Positions 26,654-46,150 are shown, counted from the stretch's first letter. The stretch: DNA of 46,996 nucleotides from an uncultured Bacteroidota bacterium (GCA_903872185.1 CAIQJL010000215.1:1-46996); one strand, 5' to 3'. The notes: generated by a model from the letters alone, not told the origin. Translations and numbers: made by a program.

Positions 26654-28633
26654 ATGAGTAACAAATTACATTTAAACGAAATTCTTAGAATTAGCTCCAT
26701 AAGATATAGATTATTTTTAAGTTTTTTATTAATTACAAGTATTGCAGTGTTAGTTGTTATACTCAATAGCTATAATATGATAAAGAAGGATCAGATTCAA
26801 GAGGTTACTGAATCTCTTGATAATTTAAATGTCCTGTACTTACAGTATATTCGCGAAAACAATGGGTTTTTTTCTTATGAAATTATTAATTCAGATTTTT
26901 ACAAAACAGGAAAAAGTCAGTATTTAAAAAAGGGAGATTATTATCATAATTTAATCCACAATGAGCTGAATAAACTAAACTCATTTAAAATGATTTCTTC
27001 TTTTAACCTAGATTCAACTCTTTTTCAAATTAACAATAAATTCGAACATGGAATTTATTTATATAATGAACTCATTAGTTTAGTGAGAATAAGAGGATTT
27101 AAAGATTATGGAATTGAAGGGATAATGCGTGAAAACGTACATCGCTTAGAAAAAATGCCTGAAATAAATCAAATTAGTTTATTAAGTCTTAGGCGTCATG
27201 AAAAAGATTATATTATTAGAATGGATACCAACTATGTTAGAAAACTTAAAAATGTTGCGGCAGAAATGAAAAAAGAAATTAGCAATAGTCATTTAAATAA
27301 GCAGAGATCCCATGATGCGTTAAAATACCTAAACAATTATGTTAACCAATTTGAAATGCTTGTATTAGTTGATTATAGAATAGGTTTAAAAAAACATATT
27401 GGTTTAAAAGAACGTCTTGACATTAACGAAAAAGAACTTTCCGAACTATTCGTAAAAGCAATTCTTAATGCTAGAATTACACAAAATGAATTATTACACA
27501 GAATGCAGATATTATTAATTTATATTTCTGTATTTATAACAATTATAGGCTTTTTTGTTAGTTGGTGGATTTCCAGACAATTTACTAAGCCTATTGTTAT
27601 GTTATCATCATATATAGACCGCTTTGTTTCAACAAAATTTAAAAACGATGAAGAATTCTTAATAAATCCTTCTGAAGATGAAACCGGAAAATTAATTGTA
27701 AATTTTGGGATTCTAAAAAAAGAATTACTTGCACACATAAATGATCTGAATCAAAAAGTATTAGAAAGAACATCAGAAGTATCCGAACAAAAATCACTAA
27801 TTGAACGACAGAACAGAGTTATTGGCCAGCAAAATAAAAATGTTATGGCAAGTATTCGTTATGCCCGTCATATACAAGAAGCTATTTTGCCAGATGTTAA
27901 TTATATTTCATCTATTTTACCTGAATATGGAATATTCTACCAACCAAGGGATATTGTTAGCGGAGATTTTTATTTTATAGATGACTTTAGCGATAACAAA
28001 AAAGATAAAGTATTTATTGCAGTTGCAGATTGTACTGGACATGGAGTTCCTGGTGCTTTCATGAGCCTAATAGGACACAATGCCCTACATCAGGCTGTAA
28101 AAGTAAAAAAAATGTCTGACCCTGTTGCAATTCTTCAGCATCTTGATAAATCTATTCACAGCACATTGCACGAAAAAAACAGATACTCTAAAATAAATGA
28201 TGGCATGGATGTGGGAATCTGTGTGTGGGACAGGAAAACAAATTACATAGAATTTTCAGGCAGTAATACATCTTTATACATAATTAGAAATAATACTCTA
28301 ATTGAATATCCTGGCCAAAAATATTTAATTGGACATGTTTTTTTAGAAGAAAATAAACCAGAGCGCACTTTAACAAAGAAACGAATTCAAGTACTAGAAG
28401 GTGACATTATCTGTATGTCAACAGATGGATACTATGATCAGTTTGGTGGAATTGATGGTGGAAAAATGAAAAGAAAAATATTTAAACAACTCCTTGAATC
28501 AATAAATACATTGTCAGTTGAAAAACAAATAATTGAAATTAAAAAATATTTTGAAAGTTGGAAAGGAGATCATGAACAGATTGATGATGTTTTAGTTTTA
28601 TTATTTATTGTTAAAGCAGAAGCTAACAATTAG
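26654..28633 (+). CDS. Membrane sensor with HAMP domain and SpoIIE-type PP2C phosphatase
   Basis: Two TM helices, HAMP-like segment (ISRQFTKPIVML), coiled coil, then RYARHIQEAILP...FYQPRDIVSGDFYFID...VADCTGHGVPGAFMSLIG. Confidence 0.9.
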   Translation: MSNKLHLNEILRISSIRYRLFLSFLLITSIAVLVVILNSYNMIKKDQIQEVTESLDNLNVLYLQYIRENNGFFSYEIINSDFYKTGKSQYLKKGDYYHNLIHNELNKLNSFKMISSFNLDSTLFQINNKFEHGIYLYNELISLVRIRGFKDYGIEGIMRENVHRLEKMPEINQISLLSLRRHEKDYIIRMDTNYVRKLKNVAAEMKKEISNSHLNKQRSHDALKYLNNYVNQFEMLVLVDYRIGLKKHIGLKERLDINEKELSELFVKAILNARITQNELLHRMQILLIYISVFITIIGFFVSWWISRQFTKPIVMLSSYIDRFVSTKFKNDEEFLINPSEDETGKLIVNFGILKKELLAHINDLNQKVLERTSEVSEQKSLIERQNRVIGQQNKNVMASIRYARHIQEAILPDVNYISSILPEYGIFYQPRDIVSGDFYFIDDFSDNKKDKVFIAVADCTGHGVPGAFMSLIGHNALHQAVKVKKMSDPVAILQHLDKSIHSTLHEKNRYSKINDGMDVGICVWDRKTNYIEFSGSNTSLYIIRNNTLIEYPGQKYLIGHVFLEENKPERTLTKKRIQVLEGDIICMSTDGYYDQFGGIDGGKMKRKIFKQLLESINTLSVEKQIIEIKKYFESWKGDHEQIDDVLVLLFIVKAEANN

Positions 28634-30045
28634 CCAACAAATAATCTAAATAAAAGAAATAATCCACCTGAAAGTAATATTGTTACAGGTATAGTAACAA
28701 CCCAAGCTATTAAAATATTCTTAACTGTGCTGTATTGTAAATTTTTTCTCCCTCCATGAGCTAACATACTACCCGCAACACCTGAAGAAAGTACATGGGT
28801 TGTACTCACAGGTAATCCTAAAAGTGTTGAAATCCCAATCGTACTTGCTGCGACTAATTCTGCACTTGCTCCTTGAGCATAAGAAAGATGCGATTTTCCT
28901 ATTTTTTCACCAATTGTCACAACAATGCGTTTCCACCCTATCATAGTTCCTAAACCAAGTGATGTTGAAATTAATAAAATTACCCACCATGGAGCATATT
29001 CTGTATATCCAGACAATTCTTTTACGTTTTTCTTGAAATGATCAACTTCCTTTTCAGTTAAGCTAATTATTGCAACGTTTTTTAATGATTCACTTTTAAA
29101 AAACTTATCACTTAATTTGGCTATTGACAGAATGTTTTTTCTAACTCCAAATCTTTCAGAATAAGGAATTTCTTCTGGACCTTGAGATCTACCAAGTACA
29201 GATTTAATTGCAGTTACTTTTGTTCTCATATCTGCGAATACTTTATAATCTGCTGCATTCAATTTCACTGTATCAATTTTTGAAATATAATTTCCAAGAT
29301 AATTAATATTACCTGTCATGTTTGTTGTAATTTTTGAAGAATCTAATGCAAATTTAGCAGGTAAAAAAGCAATTAAAATTATCATTATTAAACCAACACC
29401 TTTTTGTCCATCATTTGAACCATGAGAAAAACTAACACTTGTACATGTTAATACAAGAAATGAACGAATCCAAAATGGAGGTTTTTTAACAGGATCAGGT
29501 TCAGCAAAAAACTTTTTCTTTTTAATTATTCTTTTGAATAAAAACATTAACAGCATAGTTAAACCTAAACCAATAAGAGGTGAAATCAATAGTGATAGAC
29601 CTGCATCTGTTACTTTTTTCCAATTTAAAGCGGCATCACCAGAAATAAACATAAATGCTATTCCAACTCCAAAAATAGAACCTAATAGGGTATGAGAACT
29701 AGAACAAGGAATACCGAAATACCATGTTGCAAGATTCCATACAATTGCAGTTAAAATTAAAGCCGCAATCATCGCAACACTATGATATATATTCTGATCT
29801 ACTAAAGCATCCATGGGAAGTAAATTAACTATTCCCATAGCAACTGCAATTCCTCCAAAATAAACACCAATAAAATTCCATATACCCGACCAAACAACGG
29901 CAACACTTGGTTTTAATGATCGCGTATAAATTACAGTAGCAACTGCATTTGCAGTATCGTGAAATCCATTAATAAATTCAAAAACTAAAGCTGCAAGTAT
30001 AACTACAACTAATAAAACTGATAATCCAATTGATAATCCAAACAT
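28630..30045 (-). CDS. pit: Inorganic phosphate transporter, PiT family
   Basis: EFINGFHDTANAVATVI, CSSSHTLLGS, SFSHGSNDGQKGVGL, PVSTTHVLSSGVAGSM. Confidence 0.96.
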   Translation of the reverse strand: MFGLSIGLSVLLVVVILAALVFEFINGFHDTANAVATVIYTRSLKPSVAVVWSGIWNFIGVYFGGIAVAMGIVNLLPMDALVDQNIYHSVAMIAALILTAIVWNLATWYFGIPCSSSHTLLGSIFGVGIAFMFISGDAALNWKKVTDAGLSLLISPLIGLGLTMLLMFLFKRIIKKKKFFAEPDPVKKPPFWIRSFLVLTCTSVSFSHGSNDGQKGVGLIMIILIAFLPAKFALDSSKITTNMTGNINYLGNYISKIDTVKLNAADYKVFADMRTKVTAIKSVLGRSQGPEEIPYSERFGVRKNILSIAKLSDKFFKSESLKNVAIISLTEKEVDHFKKNVKELSGYTEYAPWWVILLISTSLGLGTMIGWKRIVVTIGEKIGKSHLSYAQGASAELVAASTIGISTLLGLPVSTTHVLSSGVAGSMLAHGGRKNLQYSTVKNILIAWVVTIPVTILLSGGLFLLFRLFVG

Positions 30046-30095
30046 AATTATAAAGGTTTATTTTAATTATACAAATTACTCTCTTTACTTTTATT

Positions 30096-30139
30096 TTAAC
30101 ATTAACTTACTGTTAAGTTACCGTTAAGTTTATGTAACT
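30096..30139 (-). promoter_or_regulatory. Putative Pho-box-like 11-bp-period array upstream of the Pit gene
   Basis: Minus strand: AGTTACATAAA / CTTAACGGTAA / CTTAACAGTAA / GTTAATGTTAA, four consecutive 11-mers (last three clearly related), ending about 50 bp before the Pit start. Confidence 0.6.
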
Positions 30140-30458
30140 AGAGTGCTTTTTTCAGATTTACTTCATGTTTGGAAAAATTAATATGATGCGCTCATTAATT
30201 TCTTGTCTTAAAGCATTTTTAATATTTGTGAAGATTTTTTAAGTTGTTTTCTATAATTGGAATTAGTAATTCCTAAATTCTTGCATTAGATATTAAAAGA
30301 ATGTCATGCTATTTTTTTAAGTATTTAAAACTGTAAATACACTTTACTTAAACCGAGAACCTAATTTAACTTCGTAATATTATTCATTATGTTTAAACAA
30401 ATTGTTATGAAAACTTATTTTTATGTTAATGAAACTTTTTATTAAATTTTCAATTAAT

Positions 30459-31118
30459 TTAATTTTTTTGAACAACCATAATTTTTGAATGAAAATAAAA
30501 AACCATTTCTTCAACAATGTTCTGAATATTGTCACATGTTCTATCTAATTTTCTTATAATAGATAGAGTATTCACAGCCATCTTTACTTCACTTTGATTG
30601 GCATTAATGTATTCGGCGACTATTTCACTAGAATCTTTATTTAATTTTTTAATTGTTTCTTTTTTACCAAAATTAGTTTTCAATAATTCATTGTTTTCCT
30701 TTTCGAAAGTTTCAAGTGTATCTGTTAATAAATTAACGCAAATTTCAAACATCTCAAATACCCGACATGATTTTAATAACTTTTCAGAAAAAGGCAATTC
30801 CTGATCCTCAATTAATTTTGAAATACTAAATGCATAATCGCCAATCTTTTCTAAGTTGTTGTTTAATTTAAGAACCACTAATACAAATTTCAAATCAACT
30901 TTGATTGGATTTTGTTGAACTAATATACTTTCACATTCTTTATCAATTTTCAATTCTAAAGTATTTAATAATTTTTCATTTACTTCAATATTATAAACAA
31001 TATTTTTATCGAAATTTTTTAAAGCAAGTTGAGATTTACTGATTTGACTAATAACAATATTCCACATCTCAACAATATTTTCTTTTAATTCTTTAATTTC
31101 TGTTTCTAAATGATTCAT
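30459..31118 (-). CDS. phoU: PhoU-like phosphate signalling regulator
   Basis: Helical protein with two PhoU-type repeats (LNNNLEKIGDYAFSIS; IIRKLDRTCDNIQNIVEEMVFYF). Confidence 0.88.
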   Translation of the reverse strand: MNHLETEIKELKENIVEMWNIVISQISKSQLALKNFDKNIVYNIEVNEKLLNTLELKIDKECESILVQQNPIKVDLKFVLVVLKLNNNLEKIGDYAFSISKLIEDQELPFSEKLLKSCRVFEMFEICVNLLTDTLETFEKENNELLKTNFGKKETIKKLNKDSSEIVAEYINANQSEVKMAVNTLSIIRKLDRTCDNIQNIVEEMVFYFHSKIMVVQKN

Positions 31119-31127
31119 AATATATTT

Positions 31128-31418
31128 TTAATTTTTTATTGTAATGCTTTCAACAGTTAATTTGTATCCTACGCCAATAATATTTCTAATAATATTTTTA
31201 TCTATTTTTTTTCTAAGATGCGAAATATGGACATCTACAGTTCTTTCTTTTGACTGCGAATTTTCTCCCCAAAGAATATTATAAATTTGTTTTCTTGAAT
31301 AAACTTTACCTGGGGTTATAGATAATAAATGAAGTAACTCAAATTCTTTTAATGGTAGTTCTAATCTTTCACCATCTTTTAAAACAATATATTTTTCTGT
31401 ATCAATTTCTATTCTCAT
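31128..31418 (-). CDS. Standalone OmpR/PhoB-type winged-helix DNA-binding protein
   Basis: LPLKEFELLHLLSITPGKVYSRKQIYNILWGENSQSKERTVDVHISHLRKKI...GVGYKL; no receiver domain. Confidence 0.9.
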   Translation of the reverse strand: MRIEIDTEKYIVLKDGERLELPLKEFELLHLLSITPGKVYSRKQIYNILWGENSQSKERTVDVHISHLRKKIDKNIIRNIIGVGYKLTVESITIKN

Positions 31419-31431
31419 TTTCTGCTAATTT

Positions 31432-31812
31432 TCAATGTTGTATCTTGTTATTTAAAACCTCGGCAACTGTACTTAGCAATAATTTTAGAGAAACAGGTTT
31501 ATTTATGTATTGTGCTCCACCAGCATAATGAGCAGTAAGTGCAAGATATTCATCGCTATCTGCAGTAAGAAAAATAACTGGAATGTTTTTAATTAATTCA
31601 TTTCGTTTTATTCTTCTGCACATTTCAATTCCATCAATTTCTGGCATTCTTATATCGGCAATTATTACATCAGGTATATGATGAATTGCCTTTTCAATCC
31701 CTTCTTTAGCATTAGACGCAGTAAACACTTCATATCCATGTTTATTGAAATTATATGAAACAAATTCAAGTATGTCATTTTCATCATCTACTATAAGTAT
31801 TTTTTTGTGCAT
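31432..31812 (-). CDS. Standalone response regulator receiver protein
   Basis: KKILIVDDEND, DVIIADIRMPEIDG, VIFLTAD, YINKPVS; ends right after the receiver domain. Confidence 0.9.
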   Translation of the reverse strand: MHKKILIVDDENDILEFVSYNFNKHGYEVFTASNAKEGIEKAIHHIPDVIIADIRMPEIDGIEMCRRIKRNELIKNIPVIFLTADSDEYLALTAHYAGGAQYINKPVSLKLLLSTVAEVLNNKIQH

Positions 31813-31885
31813 TAATAACTTTTTAGAATTTTATAAAATATCAATCTGTATAATGTTATTTCAAAGTCAATTGTTTTATAAAAAA

Positions 31886-32584
31886 CTACCAATCCATAAA
31901 TTTATATCCAACACCCTTTTGAGTTCTAATAAAATCTTCACCCAATTTTTCTCTTAGTTTTCTAATATGAACATCAATTGTTCTTTCACCCGAAGAATTA
32001 TTATCACCCCATATTTTATTAAATATTTCATCACGGGTAAATACTTTATCTGGTTTTGATGCTAACATTGCTAATAATTCGAACTCTTTACGAGGAAGAT
32101 TTACTTCTTTATTATTAACCATTACCACATATTTTTCTCGATTAATTAATAATTTTCCATTTAACAAAACAGTATCTTTTGGTTTTATAAAAACAGCATC
32201 AGCTCTTTTTCTATAGAGCATTGATTTTAATTTTGCAACCAGCACTCTTGGGCTTACTGGCTTTTTTAAATAATCATCACCGCCAGCTTCAAATCCGGCA
32301 ATTTGAGAATAATCCTCACTACGTGCTGTTAAGAAAAGTATTAATGTAGAATCAAGTTTGGATTCTTTGCGCATTTCAATACAAGTCATTATGCCATCCA
32401 TTTCAGGCATCATAATATCCAATAAAATTATGTTTGGCAATTTTTCTTTTGCTAGTTTTAAACCCTCAATGCCGTTTCTAGCCGAATATACAGTAAAATC
32501 GGCTTTAACTAAATTATACGTAAGAAATTCGTGAATACTTTCTTCGTCATCCACTATTAAAACAGAGTTTTGTAATTCTTTCAT
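31886..32584 (-). CDS. PhoB/OmpR-family response regulator (intact receiver + winged helix)
   Basis: SVLIVDDEESIHEF, NIILLDIMMPEMDG, YLKKPVSPRVLVAKL, RKEFELLAMLASKPDKVFTRDEIFNKIWG...RTIDVHIRKLREKLG...TQKGVGYKF. Confidence 0.95.
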   Translation of the reverse strand: MKELQNSVLIVDDEESIHEFLTYNLVKADFTVYSARNGIEGLKLAKEKLPNIILLDIMMPEMDGIMTCIEMRKESKLDSTLILFLTARSEDYSQIAGFEAGGDDYLKKPVSPRVLVAKLKSMLYRKRADAVFIKPKDTVLLNGKLLINREKYVVMVNNKEVNLPRKEFELLAMLASKPDKVFTRDEIFNKIWGDNNSSGERTIDVHIRKLREKLGEDFIRTQKGVGYKFMDW

Positions 32585-32625
32585 AATTAATCTTTAGACC
32601 TTTTATTCAATGTAAAATTATTTCT

Positions 32626-32669
32626 TTTGCATTAACTGAATATTAACAGTATATTATCTAATAGTTATT
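32626..32669 (-). promoter_or_regulatory. Putative Pho-box-like 11-bp-period array upstream of the intact response regulator
   Basis: Minus strand AATAACTATTA / GATAATATACT / GTTAATATTCA / GTTAATGCAAA, ending 41 bp before the start codon. Confidence 0.5.
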
Positions 32670-32695
32670 AAAACGAGATTATACTTTTGGTTTTA

Positions 32696-32728
32696 GTAAT
32701 AGAGAATTAATCTTTAGTTAACTATTAA
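32696..32728 (+). promoter_or_regulatory. Putative Pho-box-like 11-bp-period array facing the metallophosphoesterase gene
   Basis: Plus strand GTAATAGAGAA / TTAATCTTTAG / TTAACTATTAA; about 180 bp upstream of 32910, weaker than the others. Confidence 0.3.
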
Positions 32729-32909
32729 TTTATATCATTAAAATAGTTTTGTATAAAATTATATTCATTGAATTTTAAAATAAATACCATTTTCTTCAAG
32801 CAACTAATTAAAGCCTTTATCTCTCCTCTTAATATATTTTATTCTGCTTGTTTCACGATGTTATTATACTTCTTACACTATTATTCAATATTTATATCAT
32901 GATTTTTTT

Positions 32910-33776
32910 ATGCAAGAAAAATTAAAAAAAGAAAAAAGAAAAGTAGATATTCTGGTTATTTCAGATGTTCATTTGGGGACATATGGATGTCACAGCAAGG
33001 AACTTCTAAAATATATAAAAAGCATTAAGCCAAATACAGTTATATTAAATGGAGATATAATAGACATGTGGCAGTTTAGTAAAAGATACTGGCCAAAATC
33101 GCATATGAAGGTAATTCATAAGATAATTAAGTGGATTAGTGAAGGAGTCAAAGTATACTATATAACCGGAAATCATGACGAAATGCTTAGGAAATTTGCT
33201 GGATTTAAAATGGGCTCACTAATAATTGATAACAAATTATTAGTTGAGATTGATGGTAAAAAAACTTGGATTTTTCATGGTGATGTGTTCGATGTTACGA
33301 TGAAAAACTCGAAATGGCTTACAAAATTAGGATCACATGAGTACGATTTGCTAATACTTATAAATGCAGTCTGTAACTGGATTTCTGTAAAAGTGGGAAG
33401 AGGAAAAATATCTTTATCGAAAAACATAAAAAATAGCGTAAAACAAGCAGTGAGTTTTATAAATGATTTTGAAAAAACGGCAACAGATATAGCAATTTCA
33501 AATGGATATGATTATGTATTATGCGGTCACATACATCACCCAGAAATGAAAACTATAAAAACCGAAAAAGGACAAGTTGAATACTTAAACTCCGGTGATT
33601 GGATAGAAAATTTAACAGCTCTGGAATACAACGATAAAAAATGGAGCATCTTTCAATATAAAGATAAAGATTTTGAAAATGACGAAATAGATGAAGTTGA
33701 TGATGAAATATTGATGATGAGCAATAATCAAATTTTCAAACAAATGCTTTGTGAATTCTCTATAATAGCAAACTAA
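32910..33776 (+). CDS. Calcineurin-like metallophosphoesterase, PlcP-type (often annotated UDP-2,3-diacylglucosamine diphosphatase family)
   Basis: ISDVHLGTYGCHSKELL, GDIIDMWQFSKRYWPKSHMKVIHKI, YITGNHDEMLRKF, FHGDVFD, VSFINDFEKTATDIA, VLCGHIHHPEMKTI, YLNSGDWIENLTALEY. Confidence 0.85.
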   Translation: MQEKLKKEKRKVDILVISDVHLGTYGCHSKELLKYIKSIKPNTVILNGDIIDMWQFSKRYWPKSHMKVIHKIIKWISEGVKVYYITGNHDEMLRKFAGFKMGSLIIDNKLLVEIDGKKTWIFHGDVFDVTMKNSKWLTKLGSHEYDLLILINAVCNWISVKVGRGKISLSKNIKNSVKQAVSFINDFEKTATDIAISNGYDYVLCGHIHHPEMKTIKTEKGQVEYLNSGDWIENLTALEYNDKKWSIFQYKDKDFENDEIDEVDDEILMMSNNQIFKQMLCEFSIIAN

Positions 33777-33789
33777 AAAATTAAAAAAC

Positions 33790-34830
33790 ATGAAGATTTT
33801 ATACGCAATTCAGGGAACAGGAAATGGCCACATAACAAGAGCTATTGAAATAATACCATATTTACAAAAAAAAGGAGATTTAGATATACTTATAAGCGGT
33901 ATACAATCTGATATTGAATTACCATTTAAAGTTAAATACAAATTAAATGGTCTTTCATTCATTTTCGGAAAACAAGGAGGTGTTGACATCTGGAAAACAT
34001 ATTGGAAAATGAATTCTAATAAGTTAAGGAAAGAAATTAAAGCTTTAGATTTAACAAAATACGATTTAATTATTAATGATTTTGAACCAGTTTCGGCTTG
34101 GGCTGCAATAAGAGATAAAAAACCCTGTATAGGCCTAAGCAATCAAGTAGCAACACTACATCCTTTGGCACCAAAACCAAAAAATAATGACTTAATTGGT
34201 AGATTAGTTTTACAAAAGTATGCACCTTCTTCCTTCAATTATGGGTTTCATTTTAAAAGTTTAGATAACAATATATACACCCCAATTATAAGAAAAGAAG
34301 TAAGAGAAATAACAACCACAAAAGATGGGCACTATACAGTTTATCTGCCTTCTTATGACGATAAGCAAATTTTAAAAAACTTAAGTAAAATTGAAAGCGT
34401 TAACTGGGAAGTTTTTTCAAAACACTGCAAGAAAAGAAAAAAAGTAAGAAATATAACAATTCATCCTATTAATCAGGAATCGTTTTTAAAAAGCATGGCT
34501 GCAAGCACTGGAGTTCTTTGTAATGCAGGATTTGCGACTACAAGCGAGGCTTTATTTTTGAAAAAGAAATTACTAGTTATTCCTATGAAAAAGCAATATG
34601 AACAAAAGTGTAATGCCGAAATGCTTAAAAGTATGGGAGTGAGAGTTATTAAAAAATTAAACAAAGAAAACCATATTAATATATACGAATGGATAAGATC
34701 TAAAAAAATTATAACGGTAGATTATCCAGATATAACGGAAAAAATTATAGAGACTATTTTTGAAAATCATTTAGGAAAAGATACTTTGGATAAAAATTTT
34801 ACTAAGGCAAATTATAGCCTTTTTCAATAA
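33790..34830 (+). CDS. Glycosyltransferase family protein, MJ1255/VC2487-like (GT28-like fold)
   Basis: MKILYAIQGTGNGHITRAIEIIPYL, IINDFEPVSAWAA, GVLCNAGFATTSEALFLKKKLLVIPMKKQYEQKCNAEML. Confidence 0.85.
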   Translation: MKILYAIQGTGNGHITRAIEIIPYLQKKGDLDILISGIQSDIELPFKVKYKLNGLSFIFGKQGGVDIWKTYWKMNSNKLRKEIKALDLTKYDLIINDFEPVSAWAAIRDKKPCIGLSNQVATLHPLAPKPKNNDLIGRLVLQKYAPSSFNYGFHFKSLDNNIYTPIIRKEVREITTTKDGHYTVYLPSYDDKQILKNLSKIESVNWEVFSKHCKKRKKVRNITIHPINQESFLKSMAASTGVLCNAGFATTSEALFLKKKLLVIPMKKQYEQKCNAEMLKSMGVRVIKKLNKENHINIYEWIRSKKIITVDYPDITEKIIETIFENHLGKDTLDKNFTKANYSLFQ

Positions 34831-34849
34831 ATACATTTTTAATCTTTTG

Positions 34850-36190
34850 ATGAAGAATTCAGATTTTGGAGACTCTTTCACATGGGGGGTTTCTTCATCG
34901 GCACTGCAAACAGAAGGTGCTTTTAATGTTGATGGAAAAGGACTCTCTATTTGGGACGAATTCTCAAAGAAAAAAAATAAAATATTTAATAACGATTCAC
35001 CAGCAATTGCTTGCGATTTTTATAATAACCACAAAGAAGATATTGCAATAATAAAACAGTTAGGTATTCCAAATTTCAGATTTTCATTATCCTGGTCAAG
35101 GATACTACCAAATGGAACTGGAAAAATAAATCAGCTAGGAATTGATTTCTATAACAAAATACTTGATACTTGCATTGAATCAGGTATTGAGCCTTGGGTG
35201 ACATTATATCATTGGGATTTGCCATTGGAACTTGAAAAACAAGGTGGTTGGGCTAATAGAGAAATTCTTAAATGGTTCGAAGAATTTGTAACAGTTTGCA
35301 TATATTCTTTTAAAAGCAAAGTAAAATATTGGATGATTTTGAATGAGCCAATGGTTTTTACCGGAGCAGGATATTTTTTGGGCGTACATGCTCCTGGAAA
35401 AAAAAGCTTATCAAAGTTTTTATCTGCAATGCACCATGCTGTATTATGTCAGGCAATAGGTTATAACGTAATTAAAAAAATACAGCCAACAGCTCAGGTT
35501 GGAACAACATTTTCGTGCTCATTTATTACACCAAATTCCACTTCTAAAAAAGATACACTTGCAGCAAAAAGAATGGATGCACTTTTAAACAGATCATTTA
35601 TCGAACCCTCATTAGGACTTGGCTATCCGATGATAACATTCCCTTTTTTAAAACGAATTAAGAGATATATTTTAGAAGGTGATGAAGATTTAATGAAAGT
35701 TGAGTTTGATTTCATCGGTATTCAGAATTATACCAGAGAAGTTGTTACACATTGTTTTTATATTCCCTATTTAAAAGCAAAAATAATTCCGGCTAATAAA
35801 CGAAAGGTTTATCACTCTAAAATGAATTGGGAAGTCTATCCTGAATCAATTTATCAAATGATTAGAAAATACAGTAAATATAATGGTGTTAAGAAAATAA
35901 TTATTACCGAAAATGGTGCTTCTTTTAAAGATGAAGTAAAAAATAACATAATAGAAGATAAAGAGCGAAAACAATTTATAAAATCAAACCTCGAACAAGT
36001 TTTAAGAGCTAAAATAGAAGGGTTAAAAGTTGATGGCTATTTTGTTTGGTCATTAACTGACAACTTTGAATGGGCAGAAGGTTACAAACAAAGATTTGGA
36101 ATAATTCATATAGATTACCAAACTTTAAAAAGAACAATAAAAGAATCGGGAAAATGGTATAGTAATTTTTTAACTAAAAACAGTATTTAA
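34850..36190 (+). CDS. Glycoside hydrolase family 1 (beta-glucosidase-like), cytoplasmic
   Basis: FTWGVSSSALQTEGA, TLYHWDLPLELEKQGGW, WMILNEPMVF (acid/base), IIITENGASF (nucleophile), WSLTDNFEWAEGY. ATG at 34850; track start 34847 is TTG. Confidence 0.93.
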   Translation: MKNSDFGDSFTWGVSSSALQTEGAFNVDGKGLSIWDEFSKKKNKIFNNDSPAIACDFYNNHKEDIAIIKQLGIPNFRFSLSWSRILPNGTGKINQLGIDFYNKILDTCIESGIEPWVTLYHWDLPLELEKQGGWANREILKWFEEFVTVCIYSFKSKVKYWMILNEPMVFTGAGYFLGVHAPGKKSLSKFLSAMHHAVLCQAIGYNVIKKIQPTAQVGTTFSCSFITPNSTSKKDTLAAKRMDALLNRSFIEPSLGLGYPMITFPFLKRIKRYILEGDEDLMKVEFDFIGIQNYTREVVTHCFYIPYLKAKIIPANKRKVYHSKMNWEVYPESIYQMIRKYSKYNGVKKIIITENGASFKDEVKNNIIEDKERKQFIKSNLEQVLRAKIEGLKVDGYFVWSLTDNFEWAEGYKQRFGIIHIDYQTLKRTIKESGKWYSNFLTKNSI

Positions 36191-36195
36191 CATTA

Positions 36196-39069
36196 CTAAA
36201 AACTATAACTAACTCCCAAACTAAAGTAGGTACCAACCTTGTAATTAATAGTTTCCTGTTCACGTTTTACTTTTGCACCATCTTTTCCAGTAAAGATTAG
36301 AAATTGTTTATTAACAAATGGCTGATTTAATATATCCTGAATACCACCCTTTAATTGAAAATGCTTACCAAGTTTTTTAGAAAATGTTAAATCAAGCGAC
36401 TGACGAGGCATTTCATAAGTGTCTGGAATATCTTCATCAGCATTTTGCATTGGTTGTCCTACAGCAATAATTCTTTTACCAATTACATTATATAATAAAC
36501 TTACCATTAATCCCTGTTCTTCGTTTTGGTAAAACAAACCAACATTTACTATAAATGGCGATTGGCCTTGCATTGGGCGATCTCTGTCTTCTATAGGATT
36601 ATCAAATTGAACTTTACTTTTAATATATGAAGCATTAAGAGAAAGATTGAAATATTTAAAATATTTTAGAAAACTATCTGATTTCCCTAATTTCTCAAAG
36701 GATTTTTTCATTTCTATTTCCGCTCCAATACTTGTAGCTTGTTTTGCATTCTGAAATCCATATTGTAAACCACTTCCTGCATTTACATATCTTATCTCAA
36801 TTGGATTAACAAATTGTTTGTAGAAAATTCCGGCTGAAAAAGTTTCAGATTTTGAAGGATAAAGCTCATATCGCAAATCGAAATTATGTATTATAGCATC
36901 TTTAATTTTCGGATTGCCACCAAATGCAGCATTTAACTCAAAATCATAAAATATAAATGGTGCAATTTCTCTGAATTCTGGGCGATTTATAGTTTTTCCA
37001 TAACTTAATCTTAACTGACTTTTTTCTGTTAAATCATATGAAAGATTTATTGAGGGAAATAATTTTATTGCATCATTGTTATAATTAACAGGAATTGTAG
37101 GATTATCTGACAAATAACTATCTAAAGTCTGCCTGTTTTTTTCAACTCTTACACCTGTATAAATCTGAAATAACAAAGTAACAGGAATTTTAAAAGCAAC
37201 ATATGAAGCAGCCATCAAATTGCCAGCATCATAAGAATCGGAAGGGTTTGATGATTCGCTTATTTTTATACCATTTATATTGTTAATATTTTGCTCTGTA
37301 AATATTTCATCAGGTGACAAAAATAAATTAATGTTTGTGCTATCAGTACTTTTCTTATATCCTAGTAATCTTGCATTAAATGTTCTAGTTTTATTTTCTA
37401 AATATACTCCTGCTTTTAACTCAGGTCTGAAATCATTAAACTTAAATTTTTGCTCATAATTTGCACATCCCATAACAATATTCTCATTCAAATGCATATA
37501 CACTCTTCCTGCATATTTTGGGGAAGCCGCAGAACCAATAGCAACTTCGTATTTGTTATAATATTGACTAGTGGGATCTGTATTTTTAATTGTTGTTAAT
37601 CTTCGAAGGTCTGGCTCATTACGATTTGCAAAAGAGTAACCAGTTGTCCAATTTAATTTTTTTGTATCCTTTCCAAAAGAATGTTGTCCACCAAGCTGTC
37701 CAGAATAGGTAGTACGACTCAAAAAACGATATTCATATGATTTTAATATTTGTGAACTATAATATTCTTCTCCATTTCTGAATATTGTTTTTGAATATCC
37801 AGTTTGGTTAAAAACATTTCTAAATTCCAATTTATTATTTTCATTTATTTGCCAAGCCCAATTATGCAAAATACCTTCTTTTGCAGTATTTGTATATTGT
37901 TCATCCATAAAATCAAAATCGGGCGTACTTTGATCAAGAGTAAAATTATATACAGTATAATTTCTTCTATGGATATTCAAATATTGACTAGTATTACTAT
38001 AATTAATTGCAGAAATATTATTTAAAGTTGTTTTACCAATTTTAAATTTTCTTGTAAAGCCCAAAGAAAAACGCTGATCGGGAATAGCTGTTAATTTATT
38101 TGCACTCCAACTTGTATTAATTTCTCTACCTAATTCTTGTAATTTCTGTTGATCGGCTGAAAAGTTGGTAGAATTAAAATCTTCCAGTTTATTTAAATGT
38201 GTTGGAAAATCGGTTGGCAATGCACGTGTGCCATTATCAAAACCAAGAAAATCAGTTGAACTTCCTTTATATTTATAAAATGTATTAAAAGTTGTACCGT
38301 TTCTATAATGAGCTGAATAATTAACTGTAGTTGAATTTTTGTCGGAAATATTTTTTGTAAAAATCTGAATTGCTGCTCCGGCAAACTCAGCAGGAAGTTC
38401 AGGTGCGGGAGATTTAAAAATTAGAATATTATCAATTAACGAACTTGGTATTACATCAAATGAAAATGCCTTAACATCTGATTCTGAACTTGGAGCAGTA
38501 GCATTATTAAGAAGTGTTGAATTATATCTTTCACTTAATCCACGAACCATAACAAAACGTCCATCAATTACAGTAATGCCTGGAATTCTTTTTATTACTT
38601 CAGATGCATCTTTATCTTGCGAACGTTGTATTACTTCGCTTGATATGCCATTAACTACAAGATTACTTTCTTTTATTGAACTTATAAGGGACATATCGGT
38701 ATCAGTTTTTCTTGTGGCCACAACACTAATTTCAGTTAATTGTGTTGACGCTGGCTCAATGTATATTGTTACAATAGTTTCTTTATCCTTTGTTACTTTT
38801 ACTCCTTCAATTATTAATTGTTTATATGAGATATAAGATATAACAAGATTACATGTTCCAGGTTTAACATTAGTAATAATAAAATTTCCATCAAAATCTG
38901 TAGAAGCTCCCTGAGTTGTACCTTGAATAATTACACTAGCTCCAAAGATACTCTCTTTTGTTACTTTGTCTTTTATATTTCCTTTAATACTTCCTTTATC
39001 TGAAGCACTGGCTTTATAAAGACTTAGAAATATTAATGCGAGGATTAAAATAGTTTTCAAATAAGACAT
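36196..39069 (-). CDS. TonB-dependent outer-membrane receptor with N-terminal CarboxypepD_reg-like domain
   Basis: Signal peptide, GSIKGNIKDKVTKESIFGASVIIQGT..STDFDGNF, plug domain VIKRIPGITVIDGRFVMVRGLSERYNSTLLN, C-terminal beta-barrel strand ending YFSLGVSYSF. Confidence 0.93.
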   Translation of the reverse strand: MSYLKTILILALIFLSLYKASASDKGSIKGNIKDKVTKESIFGASVIIQGTTQGASTDFDGNFIITNVKPGTCNLVISYISYKQLIIEGVKVTKDKETIVTIYIEPASTQLTEISVVATRKTDTDMSLISSIKESNLVVNGISSEVIQRSQDKDASEVIKRIPGITVIDGRFVMVRGLSERYNSTLLNNATAPSSESDVKAFSFDVIPSSLIDNILIFKSPAPELPAEFAGAAIQIFTKNISDKNSTTVNYSAHYRNGTTFNTFYKYKGSSTDFLGFDNGTRALPTDFPTHLNKLEDFNSTNFSADQQKLQELGREINTSWSANKLTAIPDQRFSLGFTRKFKIGKTTLNNISAINYSNTSQYLNIHRRNYTVYNFTLDQSTPDFDFMDEQYTNTAKEGILHNWAWQINENNKLEFRNVFNQTGYSKTIFRNGEEYYSSQILKSYEYRFLSRTTYSGQLGGQHSFGKDTKKLNWTTGYSFANRNEPDLRRLTTIKNTDPTSQYYNKYEVAIGSAASPKYAGRVYMHLNENIVMGCANYEQKFKFNDFRPELKAGVYLENKTRTFNARLLGYKKSTDSTNINLFLSPDEIFTEQNINNINGIKISESSNPSDSYDAGNLMAASYVAFKIPVTLLFQIYTGVRVEKNRQTLDSYLSDNPTIPVNYNNDAIKLFPSINLSYDLTEKSQLRLSYGKTINRPEFREIAPFIFYDFELNAAFGGNPKIKDAIIHNFDLRYELYPSKSETFSAGIFYKQFVNPIEIRYVNAGSGLQYGFQNAKQATSIGAEIEMKKSFEKLGKSDSFLKYFKYFNLSLNASYIKSKVQFDNPIEDRDRPMQGQSPFIVNVGLFYQNEEQGLMVSLLYNVIGKRIIAVGQPMQNADEDIPDTYEMPRQSLDLTFSKKLGKHFQLKGGIQDILNQPFVNKQFLIFTGKDGAKVKREQETINYKVGTYFSLGVSYSF

Positions 39070-39092
39070 TTTATTTACTTTTTATAATTGCA

Positions 39093-39136
39093 AAATTATC
39101 AACTCTGTTTTAACTTAACGTTAAGTTGATTTTAAT
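39093..39136 (-). promoter_or_regulatory. Putative Pho-box-like 11-bp-period array plus -7 element upstream of the TonB receptor
   Basis: Minus strand ATTAAAATCAA / CTTAACGTTAA / GTTAAAACAGA / GTTGATAATTT; includes the 16-bp perfect palindrome AACTTAACGTTAAGTT (39112-39127); TAATTTTG -7-like element at 39091-39098. Confidence 0.5.
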
Positions 39137-39151
39137 GAATTGTTATCTATA

Positions 39152-39186
39152 ATAAAAAAAGGGTGCCTTAAAAAAGGCAACCCTTT
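39152..39186 (-). terminator. Rho-independent terminator of the 39213-40574 gene
   Basis: Minus strand AAAGGGTTGCCTTTTTTAAGGCACCCTTTTTTTATT: GC-containing stem with one bulge then T run. Confidence 0.8.
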
Positions 39187-39212
39187 ACAAACATCCATCG
39201 AAGAAAAGATTA

Positions 39213-40574
39213 TTAGTAAACTGTATTTTGTGGATCGTAATTAGCCCAGCCACTTAACCAATTAGAAGTTCCAAAAGCACCGCGATAAGTTACAACTTCA
39301 AAACCAGTAGTTAAATTAGCACTTGAAAAACTTGCAGTACCTAACAAAGGTGAATTTGAAAGAGGTAAGAAATTTGGAGTTGTACCCCATGGATCAGTTA
39401 CTTTCAAAGATGAATTTGCCATTAAAGTATCATTACCAGCGCCTAAGTACCAACTTGCAACTTGTGAAGCAGTCCAAGTAGCACCACTTGTACCAATTTC
39501 AAAAAATGTACTTGCACTACTACAACCTGAGATAGTCACGTTTTTAATTTCTAAATCACCATTTGTTGCATTTGTTTCACATTTGCTACCATCTATCATA
39601 ACACCTTCTAAATAACCAGCAAATACTGAATTATAAACACAAAGACGTGAATTTCTGCGAATATGCATAGATCTTTTAAAATTAGCACTAATATTAGAAG
39701 TTGCAGATGAAACTCTTGGTCCAAAAATGCTTACGTTTGAGAAAATAGGGTGAGTAAATGGAGCATTATCAGAACCTGCTGCATCATTATCAGATTCAAA
39801 ACCATTAGAACCAGAAACGTCAGCAACGTTTTTATCTCTTAAAGACACAATAAATTGTACTTTTCCAGAAAATCCAAAGTCAGTATCAAAATCATCATCT
39901 AATCCTTTGTATGCAAATAAATGTTTACAGTTTACTGTACCACCAAACCATTCAAAAGAATCATCGTTAGCATAAGAAACCATTACGTAGTCAACAGTTG
40001 TTCCACTTCCAACACCACAGAATGTTAATCCGTTAATTTCTTTATCTGGCATTAAAGGATAACCAGCATATTCTATACGTACATATTTTAAAGTACCTGA
40101 ATTATCAAGAGCATCTGTACCGCCATAAATTGTACGAGGACCACCTTCTACCTGAGGATTAGTCTGGTTTACTGGAGCTTTTCCACAAAGTACAACACCA
40201 CCCCAATCGCCACGGTTACGGAAAGTAACAGGAGCATTTGAAGTAAAAATAATAGGCTGAGCTAAAGTACCATTTGCTTCAATTTTAGCACCTCTTTCAA
40301 TAATTAATGTGCCCATTGTTGTTTTGTCACCTTTAATAACAGTTCCAGGACTAACTGTTAACGTAACACCGTCCACAACATAAACAAATCCTTTTAATAA
40401 ATATTTTTTATCTGCTGTCCAGGTTGTATTAGCGGTAATTTCGCCAGTTATCTCTATCACAGAAGAAGAAGGTGTTGGATCTGGTTCAGCAGTATCCTTT
40501 TTTTTGCATGAGGTAAAGCTCATACTAAAACCAATTAATAATGCTAATGCATAGAACAAAAAACTTTTTTTCAT
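39213..40574 (-). CDS. Secreted lipoprotein with parallel-beta-helix-like repeats, partner-type gene of the TonB receptor
   Basis: Lipobox (FSMSFTSCKKKD), ITANTTWTADKKYLLKGFVYVVDGVTLTVSPGTVIKGD, repetitive beta-helix-like middle region; next to TonB receptor on the same strand. Confidence 0.8.
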   Translation of the reverse strand: MKKSFLFYALALLIGFSMSFTSCKKKDTAEPDPTPSSSVIEITGEITANTTWTADKKYLLKGFVYVVDGVTLTVSPGTVIKGDKTTMGTLIIERGAKIEANGTLAQPIIFTSNAPVTFRNRGDWGGVVLCGKAPVNQTNPQVEGGPRTIYGGTDALDNSGTLKYVRIEYAGYPLMPDKEINGLTFCGVGSGTTVDYVMVSYANDDSFEWFGGTVNCKHLFAYKGLDDDFDTDFGFSGKVQFIVSLRDKNVADVSGSNGFESDNDAAGSDNAPFTHPIFSNVSIFGPRVSSATSNISANFKRSMHIRRNSRLCVYNSVFAGYLEGVMIDGSKCETNATNGDLEIKNVTISGCSSASTFFEIGTSGATWTASQVASWYLGAGNDTLMANSSLKVTDPWGTTPNFLPLSNSPLLGTASFSSANLTTGFEVVTYRGAFGTSNWLSGWANYDPQNTVY

Positions 40575-40639
40575 AATTAATTATTTAAATGATTAATAAA
40601 TTTCAAATTTCTGATGCAAAGATTATCTCTTGAATTAAA

Positions 40640-40694
40640 AGAGCTGTTACCAAATCTTTACTTGAACTTTACCAATTTGTTAATAATGTATTAA
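40640..40694 (-). promoter_or_regulatory. Putative Pho-box-like 11-bp-period array upstream of the beta-helix lipoprotein gene
   Basis: Minus strand TTAATACATTA / TTAACAAATTG / GTAAAGTTCAA / GTAAAGATTTG / GTAACAGCTCT: five consecutive 11-mers each with TAA at the same position. Confidence 0.5.
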
Positions 40695-40700
40695 CTAAAA

Positions 40701-40743
40701 ATAATCTAATGTTAACGTAAGTTTAACATTAGATAATAGCATT
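40701..40743 (+). promoter_or_regulatory. Putative regulatory site upstream of 40773: 11-bp direct repeat nested in an inverted repeat, next to a -7 element
   Basis: TTAAC at 40712 and 40723 (11 bp apart); inverted repeat TCTAATGTTAA/TTAACATTAGA flanking CGTAAGT; TATATTTG -7-like element at 40749-40756. Confidence 0.5.
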
Positions 40744-40772
40744 GAATCTATATTTGCAATAAAAAAAAGAAA

Positions 40773-41111
40773 ATGAAAACATTATTTATTTTACTCTCAA
40801 TATTAGTAATAGGTATAAATTCTAACGCTACTGATATTAAAAGCAAAAAAACAAATACCACTTTTATTTCAGGTAAAGTAACTGATATAAACACAGGTGA
40901 GGCACTAGTTGGAGTAAAAATTCAAATATCTGGAAACAATAACACTGTGTACACTGATTTTGACGGAAACTTTAAATTAGATGTTTCTGATGCAGGAAAC
41001 TATAATTTGAAAACCTCATATATCTCATATAAAGAAGATACTTTAACTGACATTAAAATTGAAACCAATTCTGAAAATAAGGTATCAGTAAAGTTAACAC
41101 CAAAAAAATAA
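40773..41111 (+). CDS. Standalone secreted CarboxypepD_reg-like domain protein
   Basis: Signal peptide then ISGKVTDINTGEALVGVKIQISGNNNTVYTDFDGNFKLDV...YISYKEDTL, resembling the N-terminal domain of the nearby TonB receptor. Confidence 0.8.
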   Translation: MKTLFILLSILVIGINSNATDIKSKKTNTTFISGKVTDINTGEALVGVKIQISGNNNTVYTDFDGNFKLDVSDAGNYNLKTSYISYKEDTLTDIKIETNSENKVSVKLTPKK

Positions 41112-42334: not shown

Positions 42335-45300
42335 ATGAAACTCCCTCTTGTTTGCTTTGTTATATTTTTTATATTCAGTAGTTGTGAAACAAAACACAAT
42401 TATCAAGATTTAAGTAAAAATTCAAAAAACACAAAAGAAAAAACAAAATCCTCTATAAATAATTCTATTTGTCCCGTTGTGTTCGTTGTTAATGAGTCTA
42501 AACTAAATAAAACTCTTGCAGGGGTTCCGGTTATTAATAAAATAGTTTCAAATATTAAAAAAGCAAAAGAATCTAAGACTATAGAATATACTAATTTGTG
42601 TAAAATAACAATTGGAAAAGACTCTGTTTTATTTCCAAAAATCATTAAAAGTCCAATTTTGAAATCTGTTATCGCAGGTATGCCAGAAACAGTTGATAGC
42701 AAAGATTTTTATAATAGAACAAATAACTTTGAAAACTATAATTGCTTTAATAATAACCTAGGAAATAAATCAGAAATAGTAAGATGCATAATACAAGATA
42801 AGAATGGTAATATTTGGTTTGGAACAGATGGTGATGGTGTTTCAAAATTTGACGGAAAATCTTTTACTACCTATAACGAAAAAGATGGGCTGCCAAGTAA
42901 TCAAATATTTTCAATTTTAGAAGATAATAAAGGCAATCTCTGGTTTGGAACAAATGGTGGTGGTGTTTCAATGTTTGATGGTAACTCGTTCACAAATATT
43001 TCTGTAAAAGAAGGACTTTCTAATAACAATGTATGGTCAATATTGCAAGATAAAGATGGAAATATTTGGTTTGGGACTTATGGTGGAGGTGCAATAAAAT
43101 ATGACGGTAAATATTTAACATATTATACAGAAAAAGAAGGATTAATAAATAATAGCGTCAGAGCAATTACTCAGGATAAACAAGGTAATATTTGGTTTGG
43201 AACATATATGGGTGTTAGTAAATTCGATGGGGTATCTTTTACGAATTTTACAGAAAAAGAGGGATTAACAAATAACAGAATAAGAGCTATTGTTCAGGAT
43301 AACATTGGAAATATTTGGCTTGGCACATACGGAGGAGGAGTGTCTAGATTAACATTTAACAAAAACAATAGTGGATATTCATTTACAAATTTTACTGAAA
43401 AAGATGGCTTGTCAAATAATATAGTTCTTTCAATATTAAAAGATAATAACGGAAATATATGGTTTGGAACATCTGGTGGCGGTATTTCAAAATATGATGG
43501 TATTAGAATTGAAAAAGAAATTAAAAAAAACAGCCACGTTTCACAACAATATTCACATGACTTTAACCTAGTTAACGAAAACATTATTGACTGTTTTACG
43601 AATTATTCTGAAACAGAAGGATTACTCAATAATACCGTACTGTCAATGTTTCAAGACAGAAACGAAAATATCTGGATTGGCACTTCTGGTGGAGTTAGTA
43701 AATTTGAAAATAACACTTTTAATAATTATACCGAAAAAGATGGGTTGCCAAATAATTTTATTTTCTCAATATTAAATGATAAGAATGGAAATATATGGTT
43801 TGGAACATATGGTGGAGGTGTTTCGAAATATAATGAAAATTCTTTTATGAATTATTCAATAAAAGAAGGACTGCCAAATAATATTGTTTTATCGATAATT
43901 CAGGATAAAAGCGGCAATATTTGGTTTGGAACTTATGGTGGAGGTGTTTCTAAATTTGATGGAAAATTTTTTGTTAATTATAACGAAAACGATGGCCTGT
44001 CAAATAATAATGTAAGATCTATTTTACAAGATAAATCCGGCAATATTTGGTTTGGAACATATGGTGGAGGTGTTTCTAAATACAATGGTAGGACCTTTAC
44101 TAATTATACCGAGAAAGAAGGGTTATCAAGTAATATTGTAATTTCTATGTTAGAAGATAAAAACGGAAATATCTGGTTTGGAACATCAGGTGGCGGAGTC
44201 TCCAGATTTGATGGCAACACTTTTACTAATTATACCGAAAAAGAAGGGTTGTCAAATAATGTTGTATTATCAATGTTAGAAGACAAACATGGAAATATCA
44301 TATTTGGCACCTCAGGTGGAGGTATTTCAATATTTGATGGTAAAGCCTTTAAAAACATTGCCGAGAAAGATGGGTTGTTGAATAATTACGTAAGGGCAAT
44401 TTATCAAGATAAAATTGGCAATATTTGGTTTGGCACACGCCTAGGTCTTTGTAAACTATCATTAAACAATCAAATAAAGTTGAATTCTTTTATTAAAAAA
44501 GAGAACTCTATAACAAATGGTATAAACGTATCACAAAATGAAGTGTTTTTTAAAAATTACGAATATGAAGATGGATTTCTTGGTATTGGAATAAATGGTG
44601 GCAATACTATTTGCGAAGATAATAGCGGAACTATATGGATAGGCTCAAATGACAGGCTTATAGCATTTAATCCTAATGTTGAAAAGCTCGATACAACACC
44701 GCCAAATATTCAATTAACCGGTATAGAATTGTTTAATGAAAATATTTCGTGGGTAAATCTTAAGTCAAATAACAAGACTAAAAGGAAGGGTATTTTAAAA
44801 TTTAACAATGTTGCGAAAGATACTTTATTTACCTTAGGTAATGGCGTGAACGTTGAAAATTTAAAATTTAATAGTTTATCTCGTTGGTATAATCTTCCAG
44901 AAAAATTAAGTTTAGCATTTAATAACAATTATCTAACTTTTCATTTTATAGGAATAACGCAGCTACATAATAAAAAGGTAAAATATAAATATAAATTAGA
45001 TGATATTGATGAATACTGGAGTGCAATAACAACTCAAACAACTGCTACATATGGCAATTTACCTCAAGGTCGTTATATTTTTAGAGTTAAAGCAATGAAT
45101 AGTGAGGGGTATTGGAGCAAGGAATTTAGTTATAGTTTTACTATTCGTCCATATTGGATGCAAACATGGTGGTTTAGGACAATTTATATCATTGTATTTA
45201 TATTATTATTATTTGCATATTACCGTTGGCGCACTAGTGATTTACGAAAACAAAAAAATGAATTAAGATTAAAAATAAATGAAGCCACCTCAGAAATTAG

Positions 45301-46150
45301 GCAACAAAACGAAGAAATAACTTCAAAGCGAGATGAAATTGAAGCACAATGGGATTTGGTATCAAATCAAAAAAGACATATCGAGGCAATTCATAAAGAT
45401 TTAAAAGATAGCATTAAATATGCCGAAAGAATTCAACATAGCTTTTTGGCTTCAAGCGAATTATTAGATGAATATTTAAATGAATATTTTGTTTTCTTTC
45501 AACCTAAGGATGTTGTTAGCGGTGATTTTTATTGGGCCAGTAAGTTGAATAACGAGAATTTTGTTATAGCAATTGCTGATAGTACTGGGCACGGTGTTCC
45601 TGGTGCAATTATGAGCATCCTAAATATTTCATCGCTTGAAAAAGCTGTTGAACAAGGGCTTTGTGAACCGTCAGAAATTTTAAATAAAGTTCGCTGTATT
45701 ATAATTGATCGACTGAAGAAAGATGGTAGCAAAGAAGGCGGTAAAGATGGAATGGATATAAGTTTATTAAGTTTTGATTTTAAAAACAATAAGCTGCTTT
45801 ATTCTTCTGCTAATATTTTAATATGGATAATTAGAGAAAATAACATAATTGAATTAAAACCCGACAAAATGCCTGTAGGTAAACACAACAGAGATCAATT
45901 ATGTTTTACTAAAAATGAGATCATTTTACAAAAAGGTGATATGATATATAGCTTTACTGATGGATTGGTTGACCAATTTGGCGGTGCAAAAGGGAAAAAA
46001 TACATGCACAAACAATTAAAAGAACTTTTATATTCAATTGCTGATTTACCACTGCAGGACCAGAAAAATCGAATAACTCAATCGTTTATTAATTGGAAAA
46101 ATAATCTTGATCAGGTTGACGATATTACCATAATGGGAATAAAAATATAA
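42335..46150 (+). CDS. Two-component-propeller (14 Reg_prop) + Y_Y_Y + TM + SpoIIE-type PP2C phosphatase sensor
   Basis: Lipobox-like N-terminus (IFSSC), about 14 units of D.NGNIWFGTYGGGVSKFDG...F.NYTEKDGLSNN.V.SI.Q, then Y_Y_Y region (YKYKLDDIDEYWSAITTQTTATYGNLPQGRYIFRVKAMN), one TM, coiled coil, KYAERIQHSFL...FQPKDVVSGDFYW...ADSTGHGVPGAIMSIL. Confidence 0.93.
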   Translation: MKLPLVCFVIFFIFSSCETKHNYQDLSKNSKNTKEKTKSSINNSICPVVFVVNESKLNKTLAGVPVINKIVSNIKKAKESKTIEYTNLCKITIGKDSVLFPKIIKSPILKSVIAGMPETVDSKDFYNRTNNFENYNCFNNNLGNKSEIVRCIIQDKNGNIWFGTDGDGVSKFDGKSFTTYNEKDGLPSNQIFSILEDNKGNLWFGTNGGGVSMFDGNSFTNISVKEGLSNNNVWSILQDKDGNIWFGTYGGGAIKYDGKYLTYYTEKEGLINNSVRAITQDKQGNIWFGTYMGVSKFDGVSFTNFTEKEGLTNNRIRAIVQDNIGNIWLGTYGGGVSRLTFNKNNSGYSFTNFTEKDGLSNNIVLSILKDNNGNIWFGTSGGGISKYDGIRIEKEIKKNSHVSQQYSHDFNLVNENIIDCFTNYSETEGLLNNTVLSMFQDRNENIWIGTSGGVSKFENNTFNNYTEKDGLPNNFIFSILNDKNGNIWFGTYGGGVSKYNENSFMNYSIKEGLPNNIVLSIIQDKSGNIWFGTYGGGVSKFDGKFFVNYNENDGLSNNNVRSILQDKSGNIWFGTYGGGVSKYNGRTFTNYTEKEGLSSNIVISMLEDKNGNIWFGTSGGGVSRFDGNTFTNYTEKEGLSNNVVLSMLEDKHGNIIFGTSGGGISIFDGKAFKNIAEKDGLLNNYVRAIYQDKIGNIWFGTRLGLCKLSLNNQIKLNSFIKKENSITNGINVSQNEVFFKNYEYEDGFLGIGINGGNTICEDNSGTIWIGSNDRLIAFNPNVEKLDTTPPNIQLTGIELFNENISWVNLKSNNKTKRKGILKFNNVAKDTLFTLGNGVNVENLKFNSLSRWYNLPEKLSLAFNNNYLTFHFIGITQLHNKKVKYKYKLDDIDEYWSAITTQTTATYGNLPQGRYIFRVKAMNSEGYWSKEFSYSFTIRPYWMQTWWFRTIYIIVFILLLFAYYRWRTSDLRKQKNELRLKINEATSEIRQQNEEITSKRDEIEAQWDLVSNQKRHIEAIHKDLKDSIKYAERIQHSFLASSELLDEYLNEYFVFFQPKDVVSGDFYWASKLNNENFVIAIADSTGHGVPGAIMSILNISSLEKAVEQGLCEPSEILNKVRCIIIDRLKKDGSKEGGKDGMDISLLSFDFKNNKLLYSSANILIWIIRENNIIELKPDKMPVGKHNRDQLCFTKNEIILQKGDMIYSFTDGLVDQFGGAKGKKYMHKQLKELLYSIADLPLQDQKNRITQSFINWKNNLDQVDDITIMGIKI
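42785..44660 (+). repeat. Tandem coding repeat array (Reg_prop, about 126-nt unit)
   Basis: Repeated DNA text such as ggaaatatttggtttggaacatatggtggaggtgtttc; units 8-11 are most alike. Confidence 0.85.

Follow-up and report, generated by a model that had tools for sequence, protein, structure and literature searches.

Gene content of the locus

The window, the whole stretch of DNA analyzed here, comprises 46,996 nucleotides and is contig C215 of a 4.3-Mb draft genome (407 contigs, 30% GC) of an uncultured Bacteroidota bacterium. On the minus strand it encodes a Pit-type phosphate transporter (28630..30045; PF01384, E=2e-86), a PhoU-domain protein (30459..31118; PF01895 match) and an intact PhoB-type response regulator of the OmpR family (31886..32584), which we propose as the binder of the sites described below. 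Between the latter two, also on the minus strand, lies a split response regulator, with a stand-alone DNA-binding half (Trans_reg_C; 31128..31418) and a stand-alone receiver half (31432..31812) in different frames. Because both halves are conserved in two congeneric genomes (loci L080 and L081), the split is not a recent frameshift. The plus strand carries a calcineurin-like metallophosphoesterase (32910..33776; PF00149/PF12850 match) and a glycosyltransferase (33790..34830; PF13528 match, weak PF04101), which is probably co-transcribed with it and has a possible role in lipid remodelling. A TonB-dependent receptor (36196..39069) and a beta-helix-type lipoprotein without a Pfam family (39213..40574) follow on the minus strand, and a small secreted CarboxypepD_reg protein (40773..41111) on the plus strand. 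We propose the lipoprotein as the counterpart of FII of Flavobacterium johnsoniae.

Two large proteins (26654-28633 and 42335-46150) flank the region. Judged by eye, their C-terminal regions are alike (ADCTGHGVPGAFMS / ADSTGHGVPGAIMS) and look like a SpoIIE-type phosphatase domain, and the second protein also has many repeats of the beta-propeller sensor type.

The intact regulator consists of a receiver and a winged-helix Trans_reg_C domain, the architecture of the OmpR/PhoB family, and its DNA-binding domain can be aligned with the PhoB effector domain of known structure. Its best NCBIfam matches were two PhoB models, TIGR02154 (192.6 bits, cut-off 296.2) and NF053854 (RespRegPhoBBctds, the best; 196.4 bits, cut-off 270), so that both scores lie below the curated equivalog cut-offs.

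Six repeat arrays at a fixed distance from the promoter

A preliminary description of this DNA had claimed gene-facing arrays of 11-bp direct repeats, uneven in quality, upstream of six genes of the window. All six were present, no more than a few bases from the positions it gave, and their quality does vary. The pit array (30100..30128, minus strand) has three units, CTTAACGGTAA/CTTAACAGTAA/GTTAATG, and ends 24 bp before the TTTG of an imperfect -7 element, GTAATTTG (30072..30079, minus strand). Upstream of phoB, two weak units, GTTAATATTCA and GTTAATG (32630..32647, minus strand), end 13 bp before the TTTA of TAATTTTA (32613..32620, minus strand), and upstream of the metallophosphoesterase, ATTAATCTTTA and GTTAACT (32706..32723, plus strand) end 24 bp before the TTTG of TAGTTTTG (32744..32751, plus strand). 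The TonB receptor has two good units, CTTAACGTTAA and GTTAAAA (39108..39125, minus strand), 13 bp from the TTTG of TAATTTTG (39091..39098, minus strand). The longest run, five units before the beta-helix lipoprotein (40645..40695, minus strand), lies 24 bp from the TTTG of an imperfect element, AATCTTTG (40617..40624, minus strand), and the CarboxypepD_reg gene is preceded by GTTAACGTAAG and TTTAACA (40711..40728, plus strand), 24 bp from the TTTG of TATATTTG (40749..40756, plus strand).

The distance from the end of the last 7-mer to the TTTG of the -7 element (TTTA at phoB) was therefore exactly 13 or 24 bp at all six promoters. The -7 consensus of the primary sigma factor, as measured in Flavobacterium psychrophilum, is TAnnTTTG (PMC9723704), and three of the six elements match it perfectly. 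Since TTAA is palindromic, either strand of an array can be read as repeats, and it is the -7 element that fixes the orientation; its direction agreed with that of the gene in 6/6 cases, as claimed. This fixed phase, which the preliminary description overlooked, is the strongest evidence that we have. Comparison with two congeneric genomes shows both arrays and -7 elements kept while the rest of the upstream regions diverges.

Scan of the genome

We searched the whole draft genome for the exact triple TTAAY-n6-TTAAY-n6-TTAAY and found four occurrences in 4.3 Mb, one of which was the Pit site. Another, on a contig beyond the view of the preliminary description, stands some 30 bp in front of a porin gene, with pstS, pstC, pstA, pstB and phoU directly behind it. 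We call this porin OprP-like by eye and from its position before pstS; the porin itself has no Pfam match. Two exact triples (C164:22606 and C102:25985) lacked the 13/24-bp phase and were treated as chance matches. With one mismatch allowed, 10 of 69 matches, at six distinct places, fell within the 47-kb window, where 0.75 were expected. In genome G001 (L190; C121:21783-21816), the porin promoter occurs a second time, in an identical copy before a 74-aa porin-like fragment that adjoins the lipoprotein gene, probably as a partial duplication.

Looser patterns (STTAAY-n5-STTAAY, or pairs of TTAA with TAnnTTTG at any gap) were non-specific in this genome, and only exact gaps were informative; the loose scan gave as many matches as its reversed-pattern control. 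A pattern read backwards is an unfair control for TTAA-rich patterns, so we relied instead on the position of the gap and on comparison with other genes.

Tests in other genomes

We trained a 7-mer weight matrix on the window sites only and applied it, with same-genus loci left out, to the upstream regions of pstS loci and of beta-helix lipoprotein loci in relatives and in 80 named genome records. A three-unit score of at least 14 bits was reached by 66/174 phosphate operons and by 10/393 other genes (P about 1e-28, other genera), and dinucleotide shuffles of the 174 regions yielded a mean of 0.6 and a maximum of 2 such scores. Among the best-scoring "other" genes, the 24-bp phase occurs at two, one of them outer-membrane receptor-like and the other porin-like as judged by eye, which probably puts the true error rate below the one counted. 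About half of the tested phosphate operons scored below 12, and many are without a clear array at the sensitivity of this test.

The 11-bp period was the only one between 8 and 15 bp that worked, with 71 operons compared to 0-2 at periods of 8-10 and 12-15 bp. Distances from array to TTTG clustered at 13 bp (20 operons), 24 bp (44) and 35 bp (7) with almost nothing elsewhere, and the aligned consensus reads as four units of nTTAACATTnn followed by TAnnTTTGc. The arrays are enriched before phosphate genes and neither at other genes nor in shuffles.

We also scanned with the phase left free (KTAACA-n4-S-KTAACA-n(3-33)-TTTG), in 98 relatives and then in 118 genomes drawn class-wide, a mostly separate sample. 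After near-identical rows were dropped, the gap was 13 or 24 bp in 21 of 59 matches in the relatives (P=5e-11) and in 28 of 84 class-wide (P=2e-13); the uniform null over 31 gaps behind these values is crude, and the other gaps serve as the control. The genes directly downstream of the 13/24-bp matches were mostly phosphate genes and included those for Pit, DUF47 PhoU-like proteins, PstS, porins, a Na/Pi cotransporter and phoB, along with TonB receptors, the beta-helix lipoprotein, CarboxypepD proteins and a metallophosphoesterase like that of the window. Small proteins resembling the CarboxypepD_reg protein have the same promoter elsewhere (genomes at L191, L332 and L333).

These results bear on the simplest alternative, that the arrays are TTAA-rich intergenic DNA that is periodic only to the eye. 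The genome has a GC content of 30% and many two-unit matches, and the loose scan did no better than its reversed control. Chance is nonetheless refuted by the period test and by the matrix test against other genes and shuffles; the phase is specific too, and the arrays were replicated in other genomes, including some with GC of 0.45-0.53. We consider a chance origin scarcely credible.

Distribution in Bacteroidota

Besides the same-genus genomes, arrays were kept in other orders. They stand before the operon of the TonB receptor and lipoprotein in Cytophagales (Hymenobacter, Pontibacter, Rufibacter, Dyadobacter), Sphingobacteriales (Mucilaginibacter, Pedobacter), Chitinophagales, Flavobacteriales (Chryseobacterium) and metagenome-assembled genomes of Bacteroidales. 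Some Bacteroidales loci (L281, L282, L535) have TGTAAC repeats at 11 bp in place of TTAAC, perhaps a variant of the box. At Phocaeicola and Parabacteroides loci the arrays were weak or absent, and no clear arrays were found upstream of pstC in these two genera (Bacteroidaceae and Tannerellaceae). They are the nearest named relatives of Bacteroides fragilis, the organism with PhoB binding data. A closely similar core is found in cyanobacteria (CTTAACCT, PMC1906773), and with the pstC result this means that the wording "phylum-specific", used in the preliminary description, should be dropped.

In Pedobacter and Mucilaginibacter, DUF47 genes have an array upstream at the 13-bp phase (with TTTA in Mucilaginibacter). 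Some of the sites, those at pit and DUF47, might be PhoB sites that serve repression and not activation. Pit carriers are low-affinity, and PhoB represses Pit in some proteobacteria. Their 13/24-bp phase is the same as at the pst, TonB-receptor and lipoprotein sites, however, which suggests the same activating geometry, and we regard repression at these genes as unlikely.

Phage copies

In IMG/VR, 72 viral contig stretches matched TTAACATTnGSnTAACAT...TATnTTTG, and with the gap left free over 12 values the exact 24-bp phase was found in 76 of 81 matches. Nearly all of these stretches belong to one lineage of flavobacterial phages, whose terminase is 54% identical to that of Nonlabens phage P12024L and whose primase is 51% identical to that of Tenacibaculum phage JQ. 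The isolated phages JQ and P12024L themselves showed no convincing arrays on checking. Most of the phage loci (L472-L531, L381, L390, L408, L419, L420 and others) carry one to three near-consensus copies each. An unrelated prophage-like contig (L322; G158:C12), with genes for an amidase, a head-tail adaptor, Erf and an exonuclease and of a lineage different from the main phage group, has four two-unit promoters with the 24-bp phase, at 294, 1478, 3482 and 6936.

The phage promoters stand upstream of small genes of unknown function with no evident phosphate role, which counts against a reading of the arrays as Pho boxes. The arrays could instead be read by a different OmpR-family regulator, or be a generic upstream element for RNA polymerase merely common to phosphate genes. 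OmpR-family proteins generally read tandem repeats, and a second regulator, the split one, lies in the same operon of the window. In bacterial genomes, on the other hand, the arrays are specific to phosphate genes (66/174 compared to 10/393), they precede phoB itself, and the intact regulator finds its best matches among PhoB models. Taken together, these observations make another regulator or a generic element very unlikely.

Through the multiple near-consensus promoters before its small genes (nTTAACATTnG repeats, 24 bp to TATnTTTG), this marine flavobacterial siphophage lineage may let the host's regulator of phosphate starvation control part of the phage programme, in the manner of cyanophages, independently of them and through better-conserved sites. 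This is a tentative suggestion, to which we give somewhat less than even weight.

Discussion

The arrays are 11-bp direct repeats, they lie upstream of phosphate genes and not of unrelated ones, and their spacing to the core promoter is fixed. The preliminary description had proposed that they are Pho boxes, and that reading has gained support from their marking of phosphate genes, from their conservation in relatives and from a genome scan that reached the pst operon. We consider it very probable that they are operators through which a regulator of the PhoB type switches on phosphate-starvation genes in the class Bacteroidia.

The proposed box consists of two to five tandem 11-mers of consensus (C/G)TTAACATTnn. 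Between the end of the last 7-mer and the TTTG of a primary-sigma TAnnTTTG element lie 13 bp, or one or two helical turns more (24 or 35 bp). Under phosphate limitation, dimers of phosphorylated PhoB would assemble head to tail along the array and bring RNA polymerase to the primary-sigma promoter. The predicted regulon comprises pit, phoB (by autoregulation), the metallophosphoesterase and glycosyltransferase, the TonB receptor, the beta-helix lipoprotein and the small CarboxypepD protein, and, on the other contig, oprP-pstSCAB-phoU. Head-to-tail binding of 11-bp direct repeats and contact with sigma are established for PhoB-type regulators (PMC4415409). The PhoB protein of B. fragilis binds a pstC promoter fragment of 512 bp in vitro by EMSA, and only traces of pstC expression remain when phoB is deleted (PMC3547664).

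We infer activation because the phase is uniform at genes known to be induced. Phosphate depletion of F. johnsoniae gave log2 inductions of 8.0 for the TonB receptor, 9.9 for the FII lipoprotein, 5.4 for the glycosyltransferase, 8.6 for PlcP and 3.1 for PhoB (PMC8115612). OprP of F. johnsoniae was not induced under the same treatment (PMC8115612), which counts against the Pho-box reading. The low scores of about half of the tested phosphate operons, the lack of clear arrays at pstC in Phocaeicola and Parabacteroides and the scores of the window's regulator below both PhoB cut-offs weigh against it as well.

Bacteroidota play a major part in recycling organic phosphorus, and lists of induced genes are all that is known of their phosphate-starvation regulon. 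A box whose promoter phase is fixed would allow the regulon to be read directly from genomes, including those of uncultured organisms. It would also assign unknown proteins, such as the beta-helix lipoprotein and the small CarboxypepD protein, to phosphate stress, support a role in lipid remodelling for the metallophosphoesterase and glycosyltransferase pair, and make phosphate control of flavobacterial phages testable.

Our literature searches of open-licence papers found no published Pho box for Bacteroidota or Bacteroidetes. The kind of element is known, and this box, its phase and its gene set appear to be undescribed for Bacteroidota in that literature. The PhoP box of Bacillus subtilis is TTAACA-like with an 11-bp period, so that core and period are nearly those of the Bacteroidota box, while the sigma promoter and the gene set differ. 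The E. coli PhoB box (CTGTCAT-n4) likewise has at least two 11-bp direct repeats, with the final unit placed some 10 bp upstream of the -10 element (PMC4415409, PMC1906773), but the Bacteroidota box has a different core, two to five units and helical-turn steps to a -7 element. The closely similar SphR/PhoB box of cyanobacteria (CTTAACCT, with a 3-bp linker) shares the 11-bp period, a nearly identical core (CTTAAC), at least three tandem repeats and a place upstream of pst and phosphatase genes (PMC1906773). In Bacteroidota, by contrast, ATTnn completes the unit, which keeps phase with TAnnTTTG, and the gene set includes the TonB receptor, the beta-helix lipoprotein, DUF47-Pit and the CarboxypepD protein. 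The PHO regulon of F. johnsoniae comprises the same gene families, which phosphate depletion strongly induces, and was reported without an operator motif (PMC8115612). Finally, cyanophage genes come under host PhoBR through Pho boxes (PMC10976474), whereas the phages described here are flavobacterial, and their copies of the box are near-consensus and multiple.
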